DNA of 46,220 nt from Candidatus Flavonifractor intestinigallinarum (GTDB lineage Bacteria > Bacillota > Clostridia > Oscillospirales > Oscillospiraceae), in the NCBI GenBank assembly GCA_019119165.1, contig DWXO01000100.1, positions 1 through 46,220 on the forward strand, written 5' to 3'. Positions 17,277-27,195 of the stretch are shown here, one piece after another (position 1 is the first letter of the stretch; the number at the start of each line of letters is the position of its first letter). A program made the translations under genes and the position numbers. The notes beneath the pieces were generated by a model. It saw only the letters and a list, made by a program, of their open reading frames with translations, did not search any database and was not told the DNA's origin.

Positions 17277-18677
17277 TTAAAAGCCCCAGGCGGATTTCAG
17301 CAGGGACAGGGCGGGAGCCATGTCCTCGGCAGCCACCCGGGTATAGCCCAGGATGAGGGCGGGAGGCCGGTGGGCTGGGGGCGGGGTCAGGTCGCAGATG
17401 GACAGAGGGGACACTCCAACCCCCACCTCCGCCGCCCGGGCGGCCAGCTCCCCCTCGTTCCACCGCTTGTCCATCCACAGCAGCAGGTGGAGGCCGGCGT
17501 CACCGCCTTCAAAGGAGCCCACCTGGGTCAGACCGGTGTCCCGGGCGGCGGCCAGCAGGGCCTCCCGCCGGGCCTTGTACCGGGTGCGGGTGCGGTTCAG
17601 GTGGCGCTCAAAGTGGCCCCGGTCCATGAACCGGGCCAGAGCATACTGCTCGAAGGAGGGGACGGTGGAGGAGTAGAACCAGAACTCCCGCCGCCACCGC
17701 TCCACCAGGTGGGGGGGCAGCACCATGTAGCTGATGCGCAGGGAGGGGGCCAGGCTTTTGGCGAAGGTGTTGAGGTAGATGACCCGCTCCATGCTGTCCA
17801 GGCTTTGCAGGGCCGGAATGGGCCGGCCGGAGAAGCGGAACTCACTGTCGTAATCGTCCTCCAGGATATAGCGCCCCGGCTGCCTGGATGCCCAGCGCAG
17901 CAGGGCCTGCCGCCGGGTCACCGGCATGATGATGCCCAGGGGAAAGTGGTGGGAGGGGGTGACGTGGACCACCTGCACCTTGTGCCGGTCCAGCTCGTCC
18001 ACCATCAGACCCTGGTTGTCCAGGGGGATGGGTTCCACCTGGACCCCGCAGCTGCCCAGGATGCGGTGGGTCTTGGTATAGCCGGGGTTCTCCACCCCGT
18101 AGCGGCCCTCCCGGCCCAGTAGCTGGACCAGCAGGCTGGTGAGTACCTCCGATCCGGCGCCCACCACGATCTGGGCCGGGTCGGCCTGGATGCCCCGGAA
18201 GCGGTAGAGGTGAGCGGCAATGGCCTCCCGCAGCTCGGGCACCCCCTGGGGATGGGGGGTATTGAGCAGGGTGTCCTCCTGCTGGGACAGCACCTCCCGC
18301 ATCAGCTTGGCCCAGGTGGCGAAGGGAAACAGGGCGGTGTCTACGGCGCTGGTGGAGAAGTTGTAGCGGAAGGCGGGTCGGGCGGGCTCTTCTGGCGGGG
18401 GCAGAGGGGCGGAGGAGGTTCTGGCGGGGGCCGCCTCCGCCGCCTGTACAAAGAAACCCCGCTTGGGCTGGGAGCGGAGGTAGCCCTCCGCCAGCAGCTG
18501 GTTATAAGCCCCCTCCACCGTCACCACACTGATTTTCAGGTGGGCGGCCAGGGCCCGCTTGGAGGGCAGCCGCTCCCCGGCGGCCAGCCGTCCAGACTCA
18601 ATCTCCCCCCGGATGTGGCGGTAGAGCTGCTCATACAAGGGCATGGAAGCGCTGCTGTCCAAAATGGGTGTGAGCAT
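17277..18677 (-). CDS. MocR-type regulator (GntR HTH plus aminotransferase domain)
   Basis: A 466-residue transcription factor with an N-terminal GntR winged helix (residues 10-78, including RLPSKRALAAHLKISVVTVEGAY) and a class I aminotransferase-like effector domain. Lys307 in NTFAKSLAPSLR is at the PLP Schiff-base position, and EDDYDSEFR (273-281) is the MocR signature. Best-known relatives are PdxR (vitamin B6 synthesis) and GabR, but no pdxS/pdxT or gab genes are adjacent, so the target is open. AGGAGG precedes the ATG. It is divergent from sigG, with a 186-bp gap; any control of sigG would be speculation. Confidence 0.88.
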   Translation of the reverse strand: MLTPILDSSASMPLYEQLYRHIRGEIESGRLAAGERLPSKRALAAHLKISVVTVEGAYNQLLAEGYLRSQPKRGFFVQAAEAAPARTSSAPLPPPEEPARPAFRYNFSTSAVDTALFPFATWAKLMREVLSQQEDTLLNTPHPQGVPELREAIAAHLYRFRGIQADPAQIVVGAGSEVLTSLLVQLLGREGRYGVENPGYTKTHRILGSCGVQVEPIPLDNQGLMVDELDRHKVQVVHVTPSHHFPLGIIMPVTRRQALLRWASRQPGRYILEDDYDSEFRFSGRPIPALQSLDSMERVIYLNTFAKSLAPSLRISYMVLPPHLVERWRREFWFYSSTVPSFEQYALARFMDRGHFERHLNRTRTRYKARREALLAAARDTGLTQVGSFEGGDAGLHLLLWMDKRWNEGELAARAAEVGVGVSPLSICDLTPPPAHRPPALILGYTRVAAEDMAPALSLLKSAWGF

Positions 18678-18804
18678 GACGAACCTCCTGTCTGACCTGA
18701 TTGATTCTGTCTGTTAGTATATCTGATCCAAGGTCAGAGAGCAAGGGTGTCCGAAGTCCATCGAAACTGGTCCCACGATAAAAAAGATTGCCGCCGGGGC
18801 TGCC

Positions 18805-18833
18805 GTATGAAAGGGACCGCCGGGGACATACTG
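18805..18833 (+). promoter_or_regulatory. Sigma-G/sigma-F-type promoter of sigG
   Basis: GTATG (18805-18809), 17 bases, then CATACTG (18827-18833). It fits the B. subtilis sigma-G pattern GHATR and CATNMTA with one mismatch. The overlapping GGACATACTG also fits the sigma-F -10 pattern. It lies about 31 bases before the sigG start, as expected for forespore expression with autoregulation. Confidence 0.6.
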
Positions 18834-19135
18834 AACACAGACACAGAGAAGGAGGCAGGGACCATGCAGGGGAAGGTTGAGATCTGCGGCGTCAATACGG
18901 CAAAGCTGAAGGTACTGAAAAACGAGGAGACCATGGAGCTGCTCCGGCGGGTGAAGCAAGGGGACATGGAGGCTCGGGAACAGCTCATTGCAGGCAATCT
19001 GCGGCTGGTGCTGTCGGTGATCCAGAAATTTTCCGGCCGGGGAGAGAACGCCGACGATCTGTTTCAGGTGGGGTGTATCGGACTGATCAAGGCCATCGAC
19101 AATTTCAACACCGATCTGGACGTGCGTTTTTCCAC

Positions 19136-19162
19136 CTACGGCGTGCCAACGATTATACATCT
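19136..19162 (+). other. attL, left junction of the sigG element
   Basis: sigG sequence CTACGGCGTGCC meets element sequence AACGATTATACATC. Aligned to the right junction by codon phase, the shared bases are TGCC, then A, then GATT (10 of 13 positions from TGCC to the T after GATT). The cross-over dinucleotide must lie in TGCC or GATT; TGCC restores the canonical residues VPMIVGEI. Confidence 0.75.
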
Positions 19163-19202
19163 GGGGAAATACATTAAACTTTCGATTTTAGAATCCGGAA
19201 TC

Positions 19203-19231
19203 TTGAATCTAAACTGTATCCGTGGTAAAAT
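19203..19231 (+). promoter_or_regulatory. Sigma-A-type promoter at the element's left end
   Basis: TTGAAT (19203-19208), a 17-base spacer, and TAAAAT (19226-19231), 43 bases before the alcohol dehydrogenase start. It gives the cargo a promoter independent of sigG. Confidence 0.65.
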
Positions 19232-19273
19232 AAACAAGAAATCAACCGCGGACAGCGAGGAGGAGTGGATACC

Positions 19274-20476
19274 GTGAACAGCACCATGTCGAAGCTGAGT
19301 GTGGCCGTACGCAAGCCGGTCATTAAAATCGTCAGCAAACCCACCCCCGTGACCTACATCGGGCCGGGACGGGCCAAGGAGGCCGGTCGCCTGCTGCAAA
19401 TGCTGGGGGCCAAAAAGGCTCTGGTGATCACCGATTCCTTCCTGCATCAGTCCGGCCTGCTGGACGGGGTGGAGGAGAGCATCCGGAACGCCGGAGTGGA
19501 GCATATTGTGTATGACGGGGTGCAGCCCGATCCCACCTTTGCCATTGTGGCCGAGGCCAAAAAGGCCTGCTCCGGCTGCGACGCGGTGGTGGCGGTGGGC
19601 GGCGGATCGGTGATGGACACCGCCAAGGCGGTGGCCGCCGCCGTGGCCAACCACACCAGCGCCGAGGCCCTGGCCGGGATGCTGAAGGTGCGCCGCCGGC
19701 CCCTGCCCCTCATCGCGGTGCCCACCACCGCCGGTACCGGCAGTGAGACCACCGTGGCCGCCATCATCTCGGACTCCATCACCCACAGCAAGAAGCAGCT
19801 GCTGGACCCCAAGCTGGTACCCATGTTCGCCATTCTGGACCCGGAGCTGACGGTGGGTCTGCCCAAGCACACCACCGCCCACACCGCCCTGGACGCCCTG
19901 ACCCACGCCCTGGAGGCCTATGTGGCGGGCTATGCCGACGAGGAGACCGACCGTCAGGCCCGCATTGCCGTCCGGCTCATCTTCCAGTACCTGCCCAAGG
20001 TCCAGGAGAATCCGGCGGACCTGGAGGGCCGGGAGGCCCTGCTCACCGCCTCCTTCTTCGCGGGCATGGCCTTCACCCGTACCTATGTGGGCTATGTCCA
20101 CGCCTTTGCCCACACCATCGGCGGCAAGTTCGGCGTGCCCCACGGCCTGGCCAACGCGGTGCTGCTGCCCCATATCATGCGCTACTACCTGCCTGTGTGT
20201 AGTAAGCAGTTTGCCGAGCTGGGCCGGATGCTCAAGCTGGGGATGCCGGGAGACAGCGACCAGATCAAGGCCACCCGCTTTGTGAAGCTGCTCTATAAGC
20301 TCAACCGGCAGATGGGCATTCCCACCCGGTTTGAGAAGTTCCCCGCCTCCGCCATCGAGGAGGTTATCGATATGGCCTTCCAGGAGTGCCACGGCACCTA
20401 TCCGGTGCCCCGGTACTTCACCCGGGAGCACGCCCGCAAGCTGATGGAGGCGGTGTGCGCCAAGGAGGAGGCCTGA
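19274..20476 (+). CDS. Iron-containing alcohol dehydrogenase
   Basis: A 400-residue group III alcohol dehydrogenase, interconverting an alcohol and aldehyde with NAD(P). It shows the dinucleotide site GGGSVMDTAK (109-118), PTTAGTGSE, the metal-site segment DALTHALEAY, and two further histidines in the stretch HAFAHTIGGKFGVPHG. GTG at 19274 is chosen because GGAGGAG (19258-19264) lies nine bases upstream; GTG 19265 and ATG 19286 are alternatives. Its first base overlaps the stop of the truncated sigG frame. With the AOR downstream it could link acid, aldehyde and alcohol: AOR reduces acid to aldehyde, and the dehydrogenase takes aldehyde to alcohol, or the reverse. Confidence 0.9.
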   Translation: MNSTMSKLSVAVRKPVIKIVSKPTPVTYIGPGRAKEAGRLLQMLGAKKALVITDSFLHQSGLLDGVEESIRNAGVEHIVYDGVQPDPTFAIVAEAKKACSGCDAVVAVGGGSVMDTAKAVAAAVANHTSAEALAGMLKVRRRPLPLIAVPTTAGTGSETTVAAIISDSITHSKKQLLDPKLVPMFAILDPELTVGLPKHTTAHTALDALTHALEAYVAGYADEETDRQARIAVRLIFQYLPKVQENPADLEGREALLTASFFAGMAFTRTYVGYVHAFAHTIGGKFGVPHGLANAVLLPHIMRYYLPVCSKQFAELGRMLKLGMPGDSDQIKATRFVKLLYKLNRQMGIPTRFEKFPASAIEEVIDMAFQECHGTYPVPRYFTREHARKLMEAVCAKEEA

Positions 20477-20488
20477 GTTCAGGCAGTT

Positions 20489-20519
20489 AAGCCCGCCCCG
20501 ACCGCGGGGCGGGCTTTTC
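20489..20519 (+). terminator. Terminator after the alcohol dehydrogenase gene
   Basis: A 12-bp stem (20489-20500 with 20505-20516) with a four-base loop and a short T run. The next gene starts 26 bases later with no clear promoter between, so it may act as a partial terminator. Confidence 0.75.
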
Positions 20520-20544
20520 CATGATGCGGGAAGGAGGGATCTGG

Positions 20545-20973
20545 ATGCCATACCAGATCACAGAAAACTGCGTGGGCTGTACCCTGTGCGCCAAAAGCTG
20601 CCCGGTGGGAGCCATCAACGGCACGGTCAAGCAGGTACATACCATCGATCCCGTCCGCTGTACCCAGTGCGGGGTGTGCGGCCGGGTGTGCCCCAGAGGG
20701 GCCATTGAGGGACCCCTGCCTGGCCTCTACAGCCATAAGGTTCCCAAGGAAAAATGGCCCAGACCGATCATCGACACCAACTTGTGTACCGCCTGCTCCA
20801 TGTGTGTGCTTGCCTGCGGCTTCTCCTGCCTGTCCATCAGCCTGCCCCGGCAGAAGGGGGATCTGGAGGTATTCGCCCAGCTGAGCGTTCCGGACAAATG
20901 CGTGGGCTGCGGTCTGTGCGCCCGAGCCTGCGGCATCGGGGCCATTACCATGAAGGAAGGGGTGGGAGCATGA
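20545..20973 (+). CDS. Ferredoxin-like protein with four [4Fe-4S] sites
   Basis: A 142-residue polyferredoxin. Four CxxCxxCxxxC motifs start at residues 9, 39, 81 and 119, two pairs of bacterial ferredoxin domains joined by a linker (60-78). It resembles the 4Fe-4S subunits encoded beside AOR-family enzymes and would carry electrons between the AOR cofactor and ferredoxin or other partners. ATG 20545 is preceded by AAGGAGGG; an in-frame ATG at 20521 lies at the end of the terminator tail. The stop overlaps the AOR start (ATGA), indicating coupled synthesis of a two-subunit enzyme. Confidence 0.88.
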   Translation: MPYQITENCVGCTLCAKSCPVGAINGTVKQVHTIDPVRCTQCGVCGRVCPRGAIEGPLPGLYSHKVPKEKWPRPIIDTNLCTACSMCVLACGFSCLSISLPRQKGDLEVFAQLSVPDKCVGCGLCARACGIGAITMKEGVGA

Positions 20974-22868
20974 TCCTGCCGGTCTATGCCCAAGTGGACC
21001 TGACAAACGGCCGGTGGCGGAAGTGTACCATCTCCGCCAGGCTGTTTGAGCAATATCTGGGTGGTAAGGCCCTGGGGGCCAGGCTGCTCACCGATCTGAC
21101 GACCGCGGGACTGGACCCCCTCAGCCCGGAGGCGGTGCTCATTGTCAACACCGGATCCATGAACGACACCGGCGCTCCCAGCTCCAGCCGGTTCAACATG
21201 ACCTTCAAAAATGTCCTCACCGGCGGGATCGCCTCCTCCAACTGCGGCGGACCCTTCGGGATGCTGCTGAAAAAGGCGGGCTTTGACGGGCTCATCCTGT
21301 GCGGAAAGGCCCCGGAGCTGAGCATGGTGGTGGTGGAGGACGGCAAGATCCGCATCGAGGCCTGCCCCCAGCTCCAGGGTCTGGACACCGAGCGCACCCA
21401 GGAGGAACTGCCGGAGCGGTACGGCAAGCTGGTCATCGGCCCCGCCGGAGAGAACGGGGTGCGCTTTGCCTGCGCCGCCAGCGGCGAGCGGGTGGCTGGG
21501 CGCTGCGGCGCAGGGGCCGTCATGGGCAGCAAGAACCTGAAAGCGGTCATTGCCTACGGCACCCGGGAGGTGGTGAAGGCCAACCCCGAGGGCTTTGAGG
21601 CCCACACCCGCAAGTGGGTCAAGCTGCTGAAAAAGCACCCCATGACGGGCGACAGCCTGCCCCGGTACGGCTCGGCGGGCCTTGTGAGCAAGGCCAACGC
21701 CTCCGGCGTGCTGCCCACCCGCAACTTTACCCGTGGCCGGTACGAGTACTATGAGGAGGTCAGCGGGGAGACCCTGGCGGACACCAGGCTGACCCGCAAC
21801 AGCAGCTGTGTCAGCTGCCCCATCCGCTGCGAGCGGCGGGTGAAGGTAAAGGGCAAGGAGGTCAAGGGGCCGGAGTACGAAACTCTGGGCCTCTTTGGAC
21901 CCAACCTGGAGAACCGGGACCTGGACCTCATCAATGAACTGAACTACAAGTGCGACCTGCTGGGTATGGACACCATCTCCCTGGCGGGTACCATCGCCTT
22001 TGCCATGGAGCTCCAGGAGAAAGGGATGGGGGATTTTGGCCTGAAGCCCGGCCAGCCAGACGACCTGCCCCGGGTGGTGGAGGACGTGGCCTACCGCCGG
22101 GGTCCCGCCGGGGAGCTGTCGGTGGGCAGCAAGGCCTTGAGCGAGAAGTACGGCGGCGCCGACTTTGCCATCCACGCCAAAGGGCTGGAGCTGGCCGCCT
22201 ATGAGCCCCGGAAGAGCGTGGGCATGGGCCTGGGCTACGCCACCGCCAACCGGGGCGGCTGCCATCTGAACGGTGGCTATCTGGCCCTGCTGGAGTCGGT
22301 GGGCGTCATCAGCATGGACGCCCAGACCCCCAAGGGTAAGCCGGAGCTGACGGTGTTCTTCCAGAACGGTATGGAGGCGGCCTCCGCCGCCGGGTTCTGC
22401 CTGTTCACCATGCAGGCCATGATCCCCGGCATCCTGTTCAAGTTCGGACCTGCCAGCTTTGCCTGCCGGGCGGCGGGCAAGGTAATGCTGTCCGCCCGGC
22501 CTCTGCTGGGCCGGATCTGGAAGTTTATGCCCTGGATCATGCCCATCAACTGTATGCTGGTACCCCACAGCAAGTCCATTGCCCTGGTCACCGGCCTGCC
22601 CATGACCATCGGTAAATTCTTCACCGTGGGGGAGCGCAGCTATAATGTGGAGCGGCTGTACAACCTGCGGGAGGGCCTGACGGCGGCGGACGACGCCCTG
22701 CCCGGACGGCTCACCAGGACGCCCCAGGACCCGGACCGGCCGGACACGGTGGTGCCTTTGGACAAGATGCTGCCGGTGTACTACAAGGTCCGGGGCTGGG
22801 ATTCCCACGGCGTGCCCACCGCCAAGCGGCTGAAACACCTGGGCATCCCTCTGCCGGAGGGGGGATAA
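20970..22868 (+). CDS. Aldehyde:ferredoxin oxidoreductase family protein
   Basis: A 632-residue tungsten- or molybdenum-pterin enzyme that interconverts aldehydes and carboxylic acids with ferredoxin-level electrons. The N-terminal pterin-binding domain contains SSSRFNMTFK and GRCGAGAVMGSKNLKA (178-192). Cluster cysteines are Cys280, Cys283 and Cys287 (CVSCPIRC); a likely fourth is in GFCLF. Near the C-terminus is YNLREGLTAADD, the family's usual RVxNxREG-type segment. Which metal it uses cannot be told from sequence. The ATG at 20970 follows AAGGAAGGGG; a longer upstream opening is the shadow of the ferredoxin gene. It is followed one base later by a MoaD-like gene, consistent with cofactor supply. 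Confidence 0.9.
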   Translation: MILPVYAQVDLTNGRWRKCTISARLFEQYLGGKALGARLLTDLTTAGLDPLSPEAVLIVNTGSMNDTGAPSSSRFNMTFKNVLTGGIASSNCGGPFGMLLKKAGFDGLILCGKAPELSMVVVEDGKIRIEACPQLQGLDTERTQEELPERYGKLVIGPAGENGVRFACAASGERVAGRCGAGAVMGSKNLKAVIAYGTREVVKANPEGFEAHTRKWVKLLKKHPMTGDSLPRYGSAGLVSKANASGVLPTRNFTRGRYEYYEEVSGETLADTRLTRNSSCVSCPIRCERRVKVKGKEVKGPEYETLGLFGPNLENRDLDLINELNYKCDLLGMDTISLAGTIAFAMELQEKGMGDFGLKPGQPDDLPRVVEDVAYRRGPAGELSVGSKALSEKYGGADFAIHAKGLELAAYEPRKSVGMGLGYATANRGGCHLNGGYLALLESVGVISMDAQTPKGKPELTVFFQNGMEAASAAGFCLFTMQAMIPGILFKFGPASFACRAAGKVMLSARPLLGRIWKFMPWIMPINCMLVPHSKSIALVTGLPMTIGKFFTVGERSYNVERLYNLREGLTAADDALPGRLTRTPQDPDRPDTVVPLDKMLPVYYKVRGWDSHGVPTAKRLKHLGIPLPEGG

Positions 22869-22869
22869 G

Positions 22870-23118
22870 ATGGCGTTGGTGCGCTACCACGGCCGGTTGG
22901 CCGACCTTACCGGCTGCCGGGAGGAACCAATAGACGGGACCAACGTGTCCCGGCTGCTGGATCAGATCAAGAAGCGCCGCGGGGTTGAGGCCTACCGGCT
23001 GGCAAAGCGGAGCCACATCATTGTGGACAAACGCTCCGCCGGGGCGGAGAAGGGCTTCCGCACCCCCACGGGACCGGACAGCGTGGTGGAGTTCATTCCC
23101 GTGTGCGGCGGCGGTTAG
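22870..23118 (+). CDS. MoaD/ThiS-like sulfur carrier
   Basis: An 82-residue beta-grasp protein ending in CGGG, so the C-terminal Gly-Gly needed for adenylation and thiocarboxylate formation is present. It has the MoaD pattern (LVRYHGRLADLTG at the start, DSVVEFIPVCGGG at the end). Sulfur from this carrier would go to the dithiolene of the AOR pterin. ThiS for thiamine is an alternative, but the neighbours (AOR before, MoeB-like after) favour the pterin role. The start is one base past the AOR stop. Confidence 0.8.
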   Translation: MALVRYHGRLADLTGCREEPIDGTNVSRLLDQIKKRRGVEAYRLAKRSHIIVDKRSAGAEKGFRTPTGPDSVVEFIPVCGGG

Positions 23119-23127
23119 GAGGGCGCT

Positions 23128-23844
23128 GTGGAACTGGAGCGATACCGACGGCAGCTGGCCATCCCGGAGATCGGACCGGAGGGCCAGCACAAGCTGGCCG
23201 ACTCCTCGGTGCTGGTGGTGGGAGCCGGGGGCCTGGGGGGGCCGCTGCTTTACGCCCTGGCCGGCGCCGGGGTGGGGCGTTTGGTAATAGTGGATGGCGA
23301 CACCGTCTCCCTCAGCAACCTGAACCGGCAGTTCCTCTTTGACCAGGCCGATCTGGGCCGCCCCAAGGCGGAGATGGCCGCCCGGCGGCTGTCCGCCTTC
23401 AACCCGGACCTGCGGGTGGAGGGGGTGGAGGCCTGGCTGGATGAGAAAACGGGAATGAATCTGCTGGCGGACTGCCAGCTGGCGGTGGCGGCGGTGGACA
23501 ATCTGCCCGCCCGGCTGGCCCTCAACGCCGCCTGCGCCCAAAAGAACATCCCCCTGGTCAACGGCGGGGTGGAGGGCTGGTACGGCTCGGTGATGGCGGT
23601 AGAGTTCGGAAAAACCCCCTGCCTGGCCTGCTGCTATGCCGGGACTGCGCCGGAGGAGGGCGGTCAGGCTCTGGGGGCGGTGACCGGCGCGGTGGCCTCC
23701 CTGATGGCCTCTGTTACCCTTCAGATGCTGCTGGGGCACAACCCCATTCCGGGGGAACTGCTGCTCTACGACGGCAGACGGCTGGAACTGGACCGTGTGC
23801 CGGTGGAGCGGGGCATGGGCTGCCCCGTCTGCGGAATATGTTGA
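23128..23844 (+). CDS. MoeB/ThiF-like adenylyltransferase
   Basis: A 238-residue E1-like enzyme that adenylates the C-terminal glycine of the carrier encoded just upstream. Visible are ATP loop GAGGLGG (32-38), VIVDGDTVSLSNLNRQFLF (53-71) with the Asp and Arg that bind ATP, and two CxxC zinc pairs (CLAC and CPVC, the latter at the very end). The adenylation core is present; no C-terminal rhodanese domain. Start is GTG at 23128 with AGGAGGG six bases upstream. It completes a ferredoxin-AOR-moaD-moeB unit and is followed by a terminator. Confidence 0.85.
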   Translation: MELERYRRQLAIPEIGPEGQHKLADSSVLVVGAGGLGGPLLYALAGAGVGRLVIVDGDTVSLSNLNRQFLFDQADLGRPKAEMAARRLSAFNPDLRVEGVEAWLDEKTGMNLLADCQLAVAAVDNLPARLALNAACAQKNIPLVNGGVEGWYGSVMAVEFGKTPCLACCYAGTAPEEGGQALGAVTGAVASLMASVTLQMLLGHNPIPGELLLYDGRRLELDRVPVERGMGCPVCGIC

Positions 23845-23847
23845 TGG

Positions 23848-23880
23848 AAGGACCTGCTGTGAAAACGGCAGGTCCTTTTG
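23848..23880 (+). terminator. Terminator after the MoeB-like gene
   Basis: A 10-bp stem (23848-23857 with 23868-23877), a ten-base loop, and TTTTG. It separates the metabolic cargo from the recombination genes. Confidence 0.8.
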
Positions 23881-23926
23881 TCTGCCTTCGGGCAAAACCG
23901 GGCACACTGAGAGCGGAGGCGATTTC

Positions 23927-24052
23927 ATGGAAATACGGCGCTATATCAACGGCAAGCCGGTGTCCGGCAAGGATTTGCCGCCCCAGCAAGTGGAAAACCC
24001 GGTGCTGGTCCGTCTGCTGCGGCAGGCCAGAGCCAGAGGACGGCGGCGGTGA
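23927..24052 (+). CDS. Small basic protein, 41 residues, next to the recombinase
   Basis: Unrecognised. It begins MEIRRYINGKPVSGKDLPPQ and ends in the very basic ARARGRRR. GGAGG sits seven bases before the ATG at 23927, a better ribosome site than many in the window, so I think it is real despite its length. It lies between the cargo terminator and the recombinase gene, inside the element. Large serine recombinases need a small partner, the recombination directionality factor, to excise; a small basic neighbour is a candidate, but there is no sequence proof. It could also be a short host-like regulator. Confidence 0.5.
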   Translation: MEIRRYINGKPVSGKDLPPQQVENPVLVRLLRQARARGRRR

Positions 24053-24067
24053 CGGTAAAAAAAGGAA

Positions 24068-24097
24068 TTGCACCCGGCGGGGATCATCCGGTACAAT
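24068..24097 (+). promoter_or_regulatory. Putative promoter of the recombinase gene
   Basis: TTGCAC (24068-24073), an 18-base spacer, and TACAAT (24092-24097), 31 bases before the chosen start. Confidence 0.55.
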
Positions 24098-24128
24098 GGA
24101 CCCCATGACACAGCATCAGGAGAGAAAC

Positions 24129-25523
24129 ATGACAGAACTTGTGGAAAACCAGCCCCTGCGGGCCCTCTATATCCGGGTGTCCACCGAGGCCCAGGCGGAG
24201 GAGGGATACTCCATCCAGGCCCAGACCGAGCGGCTGGAGGCCTACTGCAAGGCCATGGGGTGGGACAACTACCGCTGTTACACCGACGGCGGCTACAGCG
24301 GCAGCAATCTGGACCGGCCGGAGATGACCAGGCTCATCGCCGACGCCCGGGGCGGACAGCTGGCCACGGTGGTGGTGTTCAAGCTGGACCGGCTGTCCAG
24401 AAGCCAGAAGGATACCCTCTACCTTATTGAGGACGTGTTTCTGCCCCACGGGGTGGACTTTATCTCCCTCAATGAGAGTATCGACACCTCTACCCCTTAC
24501 GGACGGGCTATGATTGGTATTCTGTCCGCCTTTGCCCAGCTGGAGCGGGAAAACATCTACCTGCGTACCCGGATGGGCATGGTGGAGCGGGTGCGGCAGG
24601 GCTACTGGATGGGGGGTGGCGGGGTGCCTTTCGGCTACGACTACGACCGGAGCACCGGTATTCTGGTGCCCAACGCAGACGCCCCCCGGGTGCGGCAGAT
24701 GTACGAGCTCTACCTGAAGGGATGGTCCGCCCAGCGGATCGCCCACAGAATGGGGCTGAAATACGACAAGCTGGTGACCCAGATCCTCACCCGCAAGAGC
24801 AACATCGGCCTGATCTCCTACAAGGGGGAGGAGTACCAGGGCCTTCACCAGCCCATCGTGCCGGAAGAGCTGTTTTATCTGGTTCAGGACCGGATGAAGG
24901 AGCGGGCGTCCAAGCACCGGGCCGCCGGAGGGGGCCACCTGCTCACCGGACTGGTGTACTGCGGCGCCTGCGGGGCCCGGATGCGGTACATCCGCTGGGG
25001 CAAGAACGGCTATAAGCTGCGCTGCTATGGACGGGACCCCTCCAAACCCCACATGAAGCGGGGCGACAACTGTCAGGCCGAGGCGGTGTGGGCGGAGGAG
25101 CTGGAGGAGCAGGTGCTCCACGACCTGTTCCAGGTGTCCGCCCGGCTGGGGGAGGAGACCGACCCCGTCCCCGATCCTCTGACCCAGCTGGAGGGGGAGA
25201 TGGACAAGCTGGAGAGCAAGCTGCGGCGGCTCTACCAGCTCTTTGCCGAGGGGGAGGACCCGGTGCTGCTGGACGAGGTGCGGGCGGTGCGCGGTCAGCT
25301 GGAGCTGCTGCGGCAGGACTATGAGACCGAGCAGGCCACCTGCCGCCGGGCCGCCCGGTTGGAGGACCTACGGGAGCAGGCGGCGGGCATCAAAGACAGC
25401 TGGCCCAATCTCACCCCGGAGGAGCGGCAGGCGGTAATCCGGGACTGCGTGGAGCGCATTGTGGTGGACGGGCCCAAAGTGGAGATCTATTACACCTTTT
25501 TGAAGCATGGGGCGGAGTCATAG
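24129..25523 (+). CDS. Large serine recombinase of the sigG element
   Basis: A 464-residue site-specific integrase of the resolvase/large serine type. The N-terminal catalytic domain has ALYIRVSTEAQAEEGYSIQ with nucleophile Ser18, then FKLDRLSRSQ and a GRAMIGILSAFAQLERE segment. The recombinase domain follows (about 165-260). A zinc-ribbon domain comes next (CGACG, then CYGRD and a later Cys). A coiled coil at about 355-405 is probably needed for synapsis control. ATG 24129 is preceded by AGGAG; in-frame upstream ATGs at 24096 and 24105 are possible. It ends 25 bp from the right junction, the usual placement of an integrase. Its target appears to be sigG region 2.4. Confidence 0.93.
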   Translation: MTELVENQPLRALYIRVSTEAQAEEGYSIQAQTERLEAYCKAMGWDNYRCYTDGGYSGSNLDRPEMTRLIADARGGQLATVVVFKLDRLSRSQKDTLYLIEDVFLPHGVDFISLNESIDTSTPYGRAMIGILSAFAQLERENIYLRTRMGMVERVRQGYWMGGGGVPFGYDYDRSTGILVPNADAPRVRQMYELYLKGWSAQRIAHRMGLKYDKLVTQILTRKSNIGLISYKGEEYQGLHQPIVPEELFYLVQDRMKERASKHRAAGGGHLLTGLVYCGACGARMRYIRWGKNGYKLRCYGRDPSKPHMKRGDNCQAEAVWAEELEEQVLHDLFQVSARLGEETDPVPDPLTQLEGEMDKLESKLRRLYQLFAEGEDPVLLDEVRAVRGQLELLRQDYETEQATCRRAARLEDLREQAAGIKDSWPNLTPEERQAVIRDCVERIVVDGPKVEIYYTFLKHGAES

Positions 25524-25540
25524 AGAATTTTCCCTAACAG

Positions 25541-25567
25541 CAGTATCATGCCGATGATTGTTGGGGA
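25541..25567 (+). other. attR, right junction of the sigG element
   Basis: Element sequence CAGTATCATGCC meets sigG sequence GATGATTGTTGGGG. Joining the element arms of both junctions gives a putative attP with imperfect dyad arms GTATCAT and ATTATAC around GCCAACG, typical of serine-recombinase sites. The phase of ATG CCG ATG ATT matches that of GTG CCA ACG ATT at the left end. Confidence 0.75.
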
Positions 25568-26039
25568 AATCCGCCGCTACCTCCGGGACAACTCCTCTCT
25601 CCGGGTGTCCCGGTCCATGCGGGACACCGCCTACCGGGTTCTCCAGGCCAAGGAGAAGTTTATGAACGAGCACCAGCGGGAGCCCAGCATGGAGGAGATC
25701 GCCAAGATGCTGGAGCTGAAGCGGGAGGACGTGGTCTTTGCCCTGGACGCCATCGTGGACCCGGTGTCCCTCTACGAGCCGGTGTACGAGCACGGGGGAG
25801 ATACCATCTGCGTCATGGACCAGGTGAAGGACTCCAAAAACACCGACGAGAGCTGGCTGGAGCACATTGCCCTGAAGGAGGCCATGGAGCGGCTCACCGA
25901 CCGGGAGAAGCGGATTCTGCGGATGCGTTTTTTTGAGGACAAGACCCAGATGGAGGTGTCCGCCGAGGTGGGTATCTCCCAGGCACAGGTGTCCAGATTG
26001 GAAAAAAGTGCAATAAACCGGATGAAAAAGGATCTCTGA
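25548..26039 (+). pseudogene. sigG: sigG 3' portion, interrupted by an inserted element
   Basis: Carries the rest of SigG: region 2.4 from MIVGEIRRYLRDN, region 3 (EPSMEEIAKMLELKREDVVFALDAI), and region 4 with the -35-binding helix-turn-helix (MEVSAEVGISQAQVSRLEKSAI). The first two codons, ATG CCG, come from the element side. No ribosome site precedes that ATG, so the fragment is probably not made while the element is in place. Joined to 18864-19147 it gives 256 residues, close to the 260 of B. subtilis SigG. No further frameshift or stop is seen, so the gene looks restorable rather than decayed. Confidence 0.93.
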
Positions 26040-26047
26040 AGAACAGA

Positions 26048-26076
26048 TTGCGGATTTGGGGCCGCCATGATACAAT
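26048..26076 (+). promoter_or_regulatory. Sigma-A promoter of the ornithine cyclodeaminase-like gene
   Basis: TTGCGG (26048-26053), a 17-base spacer, and TACAAT (26071-26076). Confidence 0.7.
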
Positions 26077-26112
26077 GGAGGGGACAACAGACGGAAAGGA
26101 GTTCTGATCCCC

Positions 26113-27195
26113 ATGAGCTTTACACTTCCGCAGTATCATGCCCCTGATTTTACCCAGCCCATGTTCCAGAACGCCCCCAGCGTGACCTTCCGCTCCGCCC
26201 CCCGGGACGGGGTGGCCCCGGAGGGCTATCACGCCACCAGTATTTTCCCGGAGTATTTCAAGGTCAACGGCGACTGGCTCCTGGCCGAGGAGAGCCGGAT
26301 GGACTGCGTGGCCGTCCTGCGGGAGGGCAGGATCGCCGTGGTGGAGTTCCGCAACCTGAAGGCGGGGGAGCCGGTGGTGGTAGGCCGGACGGAGGACGCC
26401 TCGGAGGGCATCTACATCCATGCCGACGGCTTCGACACTGAGAAGGGGGAGCAGGAGACCTTCTCCTTCCGTCAGGGCCGCTCCCGGGAGACCGCCTACT
26501 CCATGGATTACGACTCCATCTATGAGCTGCTCCGCCACGAGAAGGACCACGGGCGCATTTTGTGGGTCATGGGTCCCGCCTGTGCCTTTGACCACGACGC
26601 CCGGGACGCCTTTGCCGCTCTGGTGCGGGGTGGCTATGTCCACGGCCTGCTGGCGGGCAACGCCCTGGCCACCCACGACCTGGAGGCGGGCTATCTCCGT
26701 ACCGCCCTGGGCCAGGACATCTATACCCAGAAGAGTATGCCCAACGGCCACTACAACCACATCGACACCATCAACGCCGTCCGGCTGGCGGGGTCCACCG
26801 CCGCCTTCGTCCATTCCGGCAAGGTGAAGGACGGCATCATCTACGAGTGCGTCAACCACGACGTGCCCTTTGTGCTGGTGGGCTCGGTCCGGGACGACGG
26901 CCCCCTGCCCGAGGTGTACGGCAACGTGTATGAGGGCCAGGACGCCATGCGGGCCCTGGTGAGAAATGCCACCACCGTCATCTGTATGGCCTCCACCCTC
27001 CATACGGTGGCCACCGGCAACATGACCCCCTCCTACCGGGTGGTGGACGGGGTGGTGCGCCCGGTGTACTTCTATTCGGTGGACATCTCCGAATTCGCGG
27101 TGAACAAGCTGCGGGACCGGGGCAGTCTGTCGGTACGCACCATCGTCACCAATGTGCAGGACTTTGTGGTCAACGTCCGCAAGGGCGTGCTGTAA
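26113..27195 (+). CDS. LOR/SDH-domain protein, ornithine cyclodeaminase-like (TIGR00300 type)
   Basis: A 360-residue protein whose second half matches the family first named LOR/SDH and later linked to archaeal and AgrE-type ornithine cyclodeaminase. Segments include GGYVHGLLAGNALATHDLEAG, KDGIIYECVNHDVPFVLVGSVRDDGPLPEV and VGSVRDDG with NAx-binding Rossmann features, and FYSVDISEFAVNKLRDRGS. Archaeal enzymes of this group convert ornithine to proline and ammonia. The N-terminal 130 residues are a beta-rich domain. Here it could draw on the arginine/ornithine pool encoded at the start of the window, but activity is inferred from family only. It has its own promoter and terminator. Confidence 0.72.
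   Translation: MSFTLPQYHAPDFTQPMFQNAPSVTFRSAPRDGVAPEGYHATSIFPEYFKVNGDWLLAEESRMDCVAVLREGRIAVVEFRNLKAGEPVVVGRTEDASEGIYIHADGFDTEKGEQETFSFRQGRSRETAYSMDYDSIYELLRHEKDHGRILWVMGPACAFDHDARDAFAALVRGGYVHGLLAGNALATHDLEAGYLRTALGQDIYTQKSMPNGHYNHIDTINAVRLAGSTAAFVHSGKVKDGIIYECVNHDVPFVLVGSVRDDGPLPEVYGNVYEGQDAMRALVRNATTVICMASTLHTVATGNMTPSYRVVDGVVRPVYFYSVDISEFAVNKLRDRGSLSVRTIVTNVQDFVVNVRKGVL

Follow-up and report, generated by a model that had tools for sequence, protein, structure and literature searches.

Interruption of the sigma factor gene sigG by a large serine recombinase element in Flavonifractor and its relatives, and its possible rejoining in the forespore

The sporulation genes listed as targets of intervening DNA are sigK, spsM, spoVFB, gerE and yabG (PMC10747680). 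The element in sigK, called skin, is served by the recombinase SpoIVCA in B. subtilis and by CD1231 in C. difficile, where CD1234 is the recombination directionality factor (RDF). C. difficile skin is described as being excised by a constitutive large serine recombinase (LSR) together with an RDF confined to the mother cell (PMC5025042), and the RDF gene is listed under sigma-E (PMC3789822). Because sigK acts in the terminal mother cell, loss of skin is harmless; insertion in genes of terminal cell lines is said to ensure vertical transmission (PMC5025042). Here we analyse a 46,220-nucleotide stretch of DNA from Candidatus Flavonifractor intestinigallinarum (hereafter the window), in which a 6.4-kb element with an LSR gene interrupts sigG. 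Sigma-G follows sigma-F in the forespore (PMC5025042). Comparison with related genomes leads us to propose that sigG is probably stored in split form and rejoined by site-specific recombination in the forespore during spore formation.

Like skin, the sigG element interrupts a sporulation sigma factor gene in frame and is accompanied by an LSR. The small RDF of C. difficile is described as cell-type specific and its recombinase as not so (PMC5025042); the sigG element carries a small open reading frame (ORF) that is a candidate for the same role. The two systems differ in their cell, sigK acting in the terminal mother cell and sigG in the forespore, whose DNA is inherited. They also differ in mode, skin being described as excised (PMC5025042) whereas relatives of the window also show inversion geometry, and in content, the window's element having no phage genes, unlike skin. 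In B. cereus ATCC10987 the sporulation gene gerE is likewise described as split by a non-prophage element, gin, and rejoined during sporulation, but gin measures 28.6 kb and gerE is a mother-cell gene (PMC5595907). Further insertions in sporulation genes are yin in yabG of C. botulinum, vfbin in spoVFB and SP-beta in spsM; their source calls these three prophage-like, places none of them in sigG, and describes for yin a recombinase and a putative small RDF (PMC10747680), as at split sigG. Invertons resemble the inverted sigG loci in that reversible inversion alters gene content or expression, but the account cited describes them for surface and restriction genes with tyrosine-type recombinases (PMC11892184), whereas sigG has an LSR and segments of 3.7 to 757 kb. 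Split sigG is a skin-like system in an unexpected cell type; it is widespread, and inversion is its second mode besides excision. No interrupted sigG is described among the literature matches listed, and the main text of one survey of LSR targets does not contain the words "sigma factor" (PMC10083194); coverage of subscription journals was thin, so novelty is unproven.

A sequence-only reading of the window had placed the end of the sigG match at 19147 and its resumption at 25553. Indeed, the NCBIfam profile TIGR02850 (SigG, 254 positions) is matched at 2-92 by the 5' part and at 94-253 by the 3' part, in agreement with the coordinates of both. TGCC is present at each break, as that reading had said (19144-19147 and 25549-25552), although the bases common to all sites that we read are just the CC of a proline codon, inside longer mirrored arms. 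The breaks lie 6,405 bp apart, a distance divisible by three, and joining the flanks in silico yields 256 sense codons followed by one terminal stop, as predicted. The serine recombinase gene reported beside the right break (24129-25523) ends 29 bp before 25553. Thus, as in skin, a sporulation gene is split, removal of the intervening DNA restores a single open frame, and a site-specific recombinase is encoded adjoining an attachment site; the target, sigG by profile, is not a gene of the terminal mother cell. The parallel that had been drawn with sigK and skin consequently holds for the in-frame split and the LSR and fails for the cell, sigG acting in the forespore, which becomes the progeny. 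The earlier reading missed this forespore role, as well as the recurrence of the split across the order and the inverted halves that would be joined by inversion.

That reading had also named findings that would overturn it. One was a second intact sigG; none was found in the window's genome, a 2.29-Mb draft (window contig C65) that is 85.6% complete, where the remaining matches score about 70 bits or lower. Another, an assembly error, is excluded as a general cause because the same split occurs in 11 of the 20 genomes compared in the genus, including some not labelled as metagenome-assembled genomes (Flavonifractor sp. An112, An82 and AGMB03687, of the excision type, and P. phocaeensis An507, of the inversion type). 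Those members of the genus that carry names are mostly Flavonifractor or Pseudoflavonifractor. A repeat search of positions 18000-26500 returned just chance-like families among the 20 listed.

The split falls at the same codon in all 11 genomes, and sigG is unsplit in the other nine. A recombinase of the window's family (E below 1e-280) is present in 11/11 split and 0/9 unsplit genomes, which excludes chance (P = 6e-6 under random placement, shared ancestry being ignored). Eight of the 11 have the window's layout, with G010 as a variant that has the alcohol dehydrogenase (ADH) gene, the small ORF and the recombinase only. In the remaining three (G004, G011 and G019) the 5' half lies on the opposite strand, together with the neighbouring mocR and the recombinase, so that a 3.7-kb inversion, not excision, would rejoin sigG. 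Flipping the roughly 3.7 kb between the sites would give back the order mocR(-) sigG(+) of the unsplit relatives. Inverted sites, as in an invertible switch, are thus found in these three and in G648, a single-contig genome from outside the genus, and the window's own sites are direct. The inversion-type loci have no metabolic cargo and contain only mocR, an ORF of 57-60 residues, the small ORF and the recombinase; their recombinases form a clade (support 100/97) beside the excision types (93/95, drawn open). In each of these loci the 57-60-residue ORF (MRPYxxDLYxLFRH...) separates mocR from the small ORF (L039:5743-5916, with L044 and L047 alike in position), and the L039 copy has no Pfam match. 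A MocR-type gene 43-48% identical to the window's also stands beside the recombinase on two further contigs (L110:4375-5844 and L112:1842-3089), so it may belong to the switch. One draft of the genus, G012, has two unsplit sigG genes (L054, L055), either paralogous or contaminant.

The split is not confined to this genus. We scanned 400 family and 395 order genomes for low-scoring sigG matches, followed these up and then read their junctions, candidates outside the genus being picked by a best E-value between 1e-60 and 1e-95 (G020 and others scoring near 1e-100 were left out of the junction reading). This gave 44 genomes (11 + 13 + 20) with both halves broken at the same codon and six more with the C half only. 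Among the first 24 low-scoring genomes outside the genus, 19 were true splits; the other five (G153, G156, G148, G283 and G291) were rejected as contig ends or broken frames. G467, at a contig end, was not counted, and G734 has a full-length sigG. Of the 75 family-scan genomes without a match, seven were inspected and none showed paired sigG halves in its search rows; the order scan had 26 such genomes, of which G541 alone was followed. In genus g4 a split C half is present in 10 of 11 genomes by profile coordinates, two of which, G410 and G412, have a whole sigG besides the split copy (contamination 4% and 8%). In genus g179, 13 of 15 are split by reading and G541 by search rows, and G588 is unsplit at the main site. 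Among 215 genomes from the class, five that lie outside the order are possible splits by score alone (G750, G763, G783, G891 and G945).

Both halves lie on one contig in 16 of the 44 genomes and on different contigs in 28. The single-contig cases comprise 11 with excision geometry (eight of this genus, G130 with 25 kb, G205 with 6.7 kb and G533 with 17 kb), four with inversion geometry (the three of this genus and G648) and one, G643, in which the sites are direct but reversed. In G648, a contig of 4,005,854 bp, the halves stand at 1.747 Mb (+) and 2.504 Mb (-), 757 kb apart. The sign of the GC skew, sampled in 20 stretches of 20 kb each, switches between 1.9 and 2.1 Mb, so the halves flank the likely terminus. 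Each half is on the G-rich (leading) strand, and inverting the 757 kb across the terminus would join them.

The element side of attL reads TGGGGAAA in 8/8 excision-type genomes of the genus and TGTGGAAA in the three inversion types; attR has TTTTCCCyAA or a close variant, plus TGCC, in all 11. A recombinase, either window-like or of a remote lineage seen in genera g5 and g40, occurs in the fetched stretch of 43 of the 50 split genomes, and in 38 it points the same way as the C half and precedes it by no more than about 1.1 kb. In a tree of 46 recombinase rows g179 (13 rows), g4 (six) and the window's genus (11) each form a single clade. Across 43 genomes (G699 was left out as a near-duplicate of G648) the element-side arms of the two breaks mirror each other at a mean of 12.65 of 19 positions, compared with 9.77 under random pairing, and none of 20,000 shuffles reached as high. 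The mirrored arms thus let the pair of breaks in a genome be derived from a single symmetric attP of its lineage, even where the two are on different contigs.

Both halves appear to be in use. Their sequences indicate strong purifying selection on both in Flavonifractor: in the 11 split genomes of the genus the ratio of nonsynonymous to synonymous change (dN/dS; Nei-Gojobori with Jukes-Cantor correction) is 0.041 for the N half and 0.050 for the C half, with no stops, which bears out the earlier impression that neither is decayed. The values for eight of the nine unsplit genomes are 0.054 and 0.112 (G002 and the second G012 copy were left out). Judged by sequence, neither half resembles a gene of its own, because the tails of the N half past the break vary from 3 to 200 residues in 44 loci, agreeing over the site arm only, and a Shine-Dalgarno (SD)-like 4-mer precedes the C-half ATG in just 2 of 50. 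Other sporulation genes are also retained. Among 45 genomes tested, which include 36 of the 50 split ones, SpoIVA was found in 34/36 split and 7/9 unsplit genomes and SpoVAD in 34/36 and 9/9, some of the matches being in pieces; in the split set SpoIVA was not found in G399 and G536, nor SpoVAD in G399 and G206.

A protein that could direct the reaction is suggested by the small ORF. It encodes about 40-70 residues with the motif RY-x-NG followed by LP, and lies directly upstream of the recombinase in 11/11 split genomes of the genus. Relatives occur in 14 g179 genomes, in G533, G413, G069, G328 and G064, and on the named contigs L106 and L109. These matches outside the genus are weak (first-round E from 1.6e-7 to 0.1, some in the second round only, at a lax inclusion threshold of 0.2), and their position upstream of the recombinase supports them. 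The ORF has no match in Pfam, PHROG or NCBIfam.

We scored -10 boxes against GGnnAnAnTR, which we take to be the sigma-F form. The full form stands before 18 of the 25 small ORFs tested, compared with 1.54 expected from shuffles, the related sequences not being independent; control genes have it in 1/11, 1/18 and 2/19 cases. (The test omits L156, L173 and L109 from the 28 small ORFs, as well as later second-round matches.) In six excision-type loci the small-ORF promoter reads GTCTG, 15 nt, GGGCAyACTG, its boxes being 100% and 95% identical and its spacer 43%. The sigG promoter differs from it in spacing (GTATG, 14 nt) and is constant in the genus: all 19 upstream regions tested share its -35 box and its spacing and have a full -10 match (the second G012 copy and G002 again being left out). 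The literature describes the boxes of sigma-F and sigma-G as alike, a G upstream of the -10 marking sigma-F; the usual sigma-F spacing is given as 15 nt, and that of sigG as 14 nt in 14/15 Bacilli and 3/13 Clostridia (PMC3789822, PMC5942855). Sequence and position together make the 41-residue ORF of the window a candidate directionality factor that may be made in the forespore.

Our model takes as its starting point the observed halves, the half-sites with their mirrored arms and CC core, the LSR, the small ORF with its sigma-F-like -10 box in most loci tested, the selection and the association. Sigma-F would make the small protein in the forespore, and this protein, acting as an RDF, would let the recombinase join attL to attR. 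The joining would rebuild sigG, which then contains attB, and leave attP; sigma-F would also transcribe the rebuilt gene, and sigma-G would follow. In the window's lineage the 6.4-kb segment would leave as a circle, which may be recaptured; in the three inversion-type relatives the 3.7-kb segment would flip and be kept, as would the 757-kb segment of G648. At or after germination the recombinase alone would recombine attP with attB and re-split sigG, and because of this resetting the arrangement could survive even though the joining occurs in a progeny cell. The earlier suggestion that sigG is still rejoined at times thus gains support from selection, mirrored arms, retention through genera and the sigma-F-like box.

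More tentatively, and with somewhat less than even confidence, we extend the model to a whole order of gut bacteria, in which sporulation would be controlled by a reversible programmed rearrangement in a germ-line cell: an RDF made under sigma-F would bring about the joining of sigG, either through excision or through inversion of as much as 757 kb spanning the terminus, with a reset at germination. Even G643 could work in this scheme, the forespore being non-replicating and both circles staying together.

Several observations weigh against these proposals. G643 is the main misfit: it fits neither mode, and joining would place sigG on a 112-kb circle, which would have to be temporary. No recombinase like the probe was found in the fetched stretch of 7/50 split genomes, the two g107 recombinases are not sisters in the tree, and shuffling the arm pairs inside a genus does not worsen their fit (p 0.26). 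The small-ORF profile found nothing in g4, nor next to the recombinases of g5/g40. Before the small ORF the full -10 form is missing in the three inversion types and in four further loci, the -35 box matches sigma-F poorly, and the full form precedes 0/14 sigG genes of g179 (GTATA, 15 nt, 5/6 positions). A joined snapshot was sought through the recombinase in 45 genomes, most of them sigG-unsplit, a search that does not cover the g5/g40 lineage; five have the recombinase and none of these has sigG solely whole. G374 (L199), 78% complete, keeps the recombinase without a detectable sigG. Finally, sigG is broken a second time in six genomes, and a single joining event would leave that break unrepaired: G533 (L131), G633 (L152), G679 (L154, L204-L205), G699 (L156) and G723 (L158), which are five of the 44, and G588 (L160).

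The position of this second break is shared: it follows ISQ, or the corresponding residues, in the region-4 helix, some 17 codons ahead of the stop. G648 is whole there, and its recombinase is nearly identical to that of G699. In G679 the missing 3' end stands about 23 kb downstream on the same strand, with an IHISQ repeat and, about 1 kb before it, a gene that shares 30% identity with the recombinase; reading the corresponding stretches of the other five did not reveal their missing ends. The second break looks like the mark of a further intervening element in sigG, with decay as the alternative there, and it weighs a little for decay in these six genomes, none of which belongs to the Flavonifractor-type genus.

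An unlikely alternative to forespore joining is a stochastic phase switch: during growth, and independently of sporulation, the recombinase would occasionally join sigG and split it again, so that only a minority of cells could complete a spore, as bet-hedging. The sites, the selection and the inversion geometry fit this equally well, and the assemblies read were in the split state: no joined orientation beside the recombinase was seen in the 20 genomes of the genus or the 45 searched relatives. Moreover, the element in C. botulinum yabG is reported to exist in two subpopulations, integrated and excised (PMC10747680). What points instead to the forespore is the sigma-F-like -10 form that the small ORF has in common with sigG in the genus.

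It is very improbable that the element simply broke sigG in lineages that no longer complete sporulation. Such a loss would be consistent with the failure to find a joined copy in the 45-genome search, with the few split genomes in which SpoIVA or SpoVAD was not found, with the second break, and with the fact that sigG is essential for spores in model organisms. Broken genes would not be expected to keep dN/dS at 0.04-0.05 in both stop-free halves of 11 genomes or to conserve the exact split codon, and SpoIVA and SpoVAD each persist in all but two of the split genomes tested.

We give still less credence to the idea that each half yields its own polypeptide and that the two associate to form sigma-G without any joining of the DNA. 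An in-frame ATG does open the C half at the same place in the loci read, and assembly of this kind would account for G643 and for halves on different contigs. Against it are the rarity of SD-like 4-mers and the differing N-half tails, as well as the mirrored arms, which it leaves unexplained; the cut, moreover, falls not between domains but at a position that we take to be inside sigma region 2. Least probable of all is that sigG is a recurrent landing site for serine-integrase elements, tolerated through their frequent departure and without developmental role, for although the codon is shared by two recombinase lineages, metabolic cargo is present in the window's element and a second place near the sigG 3' end is also hit, the inversion types have no such cargo, and the single clade per genus in three genera and the far-apart halves are unlike traces of a passing element.

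If sigG is joined in the forespore, it breaks the rule that such elements occupy genes of terminal cells, and inversion would be a way out, turning the gene on while keeping the switch. Germ-line DNA rearrangement in bacterial development thereby becomes testable. Genome surveys that require a whole sigG may call spore formers non-sporulating, and the recombinase and small ORF, judged from sequence, may be a natural source of new recombinase/directionality-factor pairs.

The contents of the window's element, an ADH-AOR operon, the 41-residue ORF and the LSR gene, do not suggest a prophage (Table 1). The seven ORFs scanned between the sites match ADH, Fe-S, aldehyde oxidoreductase (AOR), ThiS, ThiF and recombinase families and no phage structural or replication family, and the small ORF matches none. 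The recombinase is an LSR by its Resolvase, Recombinase and zinc-ribbon domains, and the solved TP901-1 and A118 integrase chains match it by sequence. Phage and plasmid records contained no copy of the element, the matches being just pieces of 60-80% identity. A search of IMG/VR with the recombinase gave no relatives and hence no sign of an excised circle.

Table 1. Features of the sigG locus, in window coordinates
Feature	Position	Strand	Remarks
MocR-type regulator adjoining sigG	17277..18677	-	outside window's element; within invertible segment of inversion-type relatives
sigma-F-like promoter of sigG	18805..18833	+	GTATG, 14 nt, GGACATACTG
5' part of sigG	18864..19147	+	94 codons + CC of Pro codon
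Left recombination site (attL)	19126..19169	+	crossover CC at 19146-19147
Iron-containing alcohol dehydrogenase (cargo)	19265..20476	+	Fe-ADH, Pfam
4Fe-4S ferredoxin-like protein (cargo)	20521..20973	+	Pfam
Aldehyde ferredoxin oxidoreductase (cargo)	20973..22868, start approximate	+	AFOR_N and AFOR_C, Pfam
ThiS-like sulfur carrier (cargo)	22870..23118	+	Pfam
ThiF-like adenylyltransferase (cargo)	23128..23844	+	Pfam
sigma-F-like promoter of small ORF	23880..23909	+	GTCTG, 15 nt, GGGCACACTG
41-aa ORF, candidate RDF	23927..24052	+	
Large serine recombinase	24129..25523	+	Resolvase, Recombinase, Zn_ribbon_recom domains
Right recombination site (attR)	25526..25569	+	crossover CC at 25551-25552
3' part of sigG	25553..26039	+	

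Some further observations concern related genes. The window's genome has a second, more distant recombinase (about 300 bits; G000:C47:9533-10672), which is also present in G001, G010 and G015. In Pusillibacter faecalis an annotated sigG lies on a 504-kb replicon listed as a plasmid (NZ_AP023421.1:136776-137526). SpoVAD matches in three pieces on three contigs (L170-L172) in G533, where sigG is also split. Finally, spoIVA is split near residue 402 in G002 and G008, genomes of the genus in which sigG is unsplit (L161-L164), and also in G413 (L167, L168). In G002 about 46 kb of a single contig separates the two parts, whereas G008 and G413 have them on two contigs; this split looks like another intervening element, here in a mother-cell gene.

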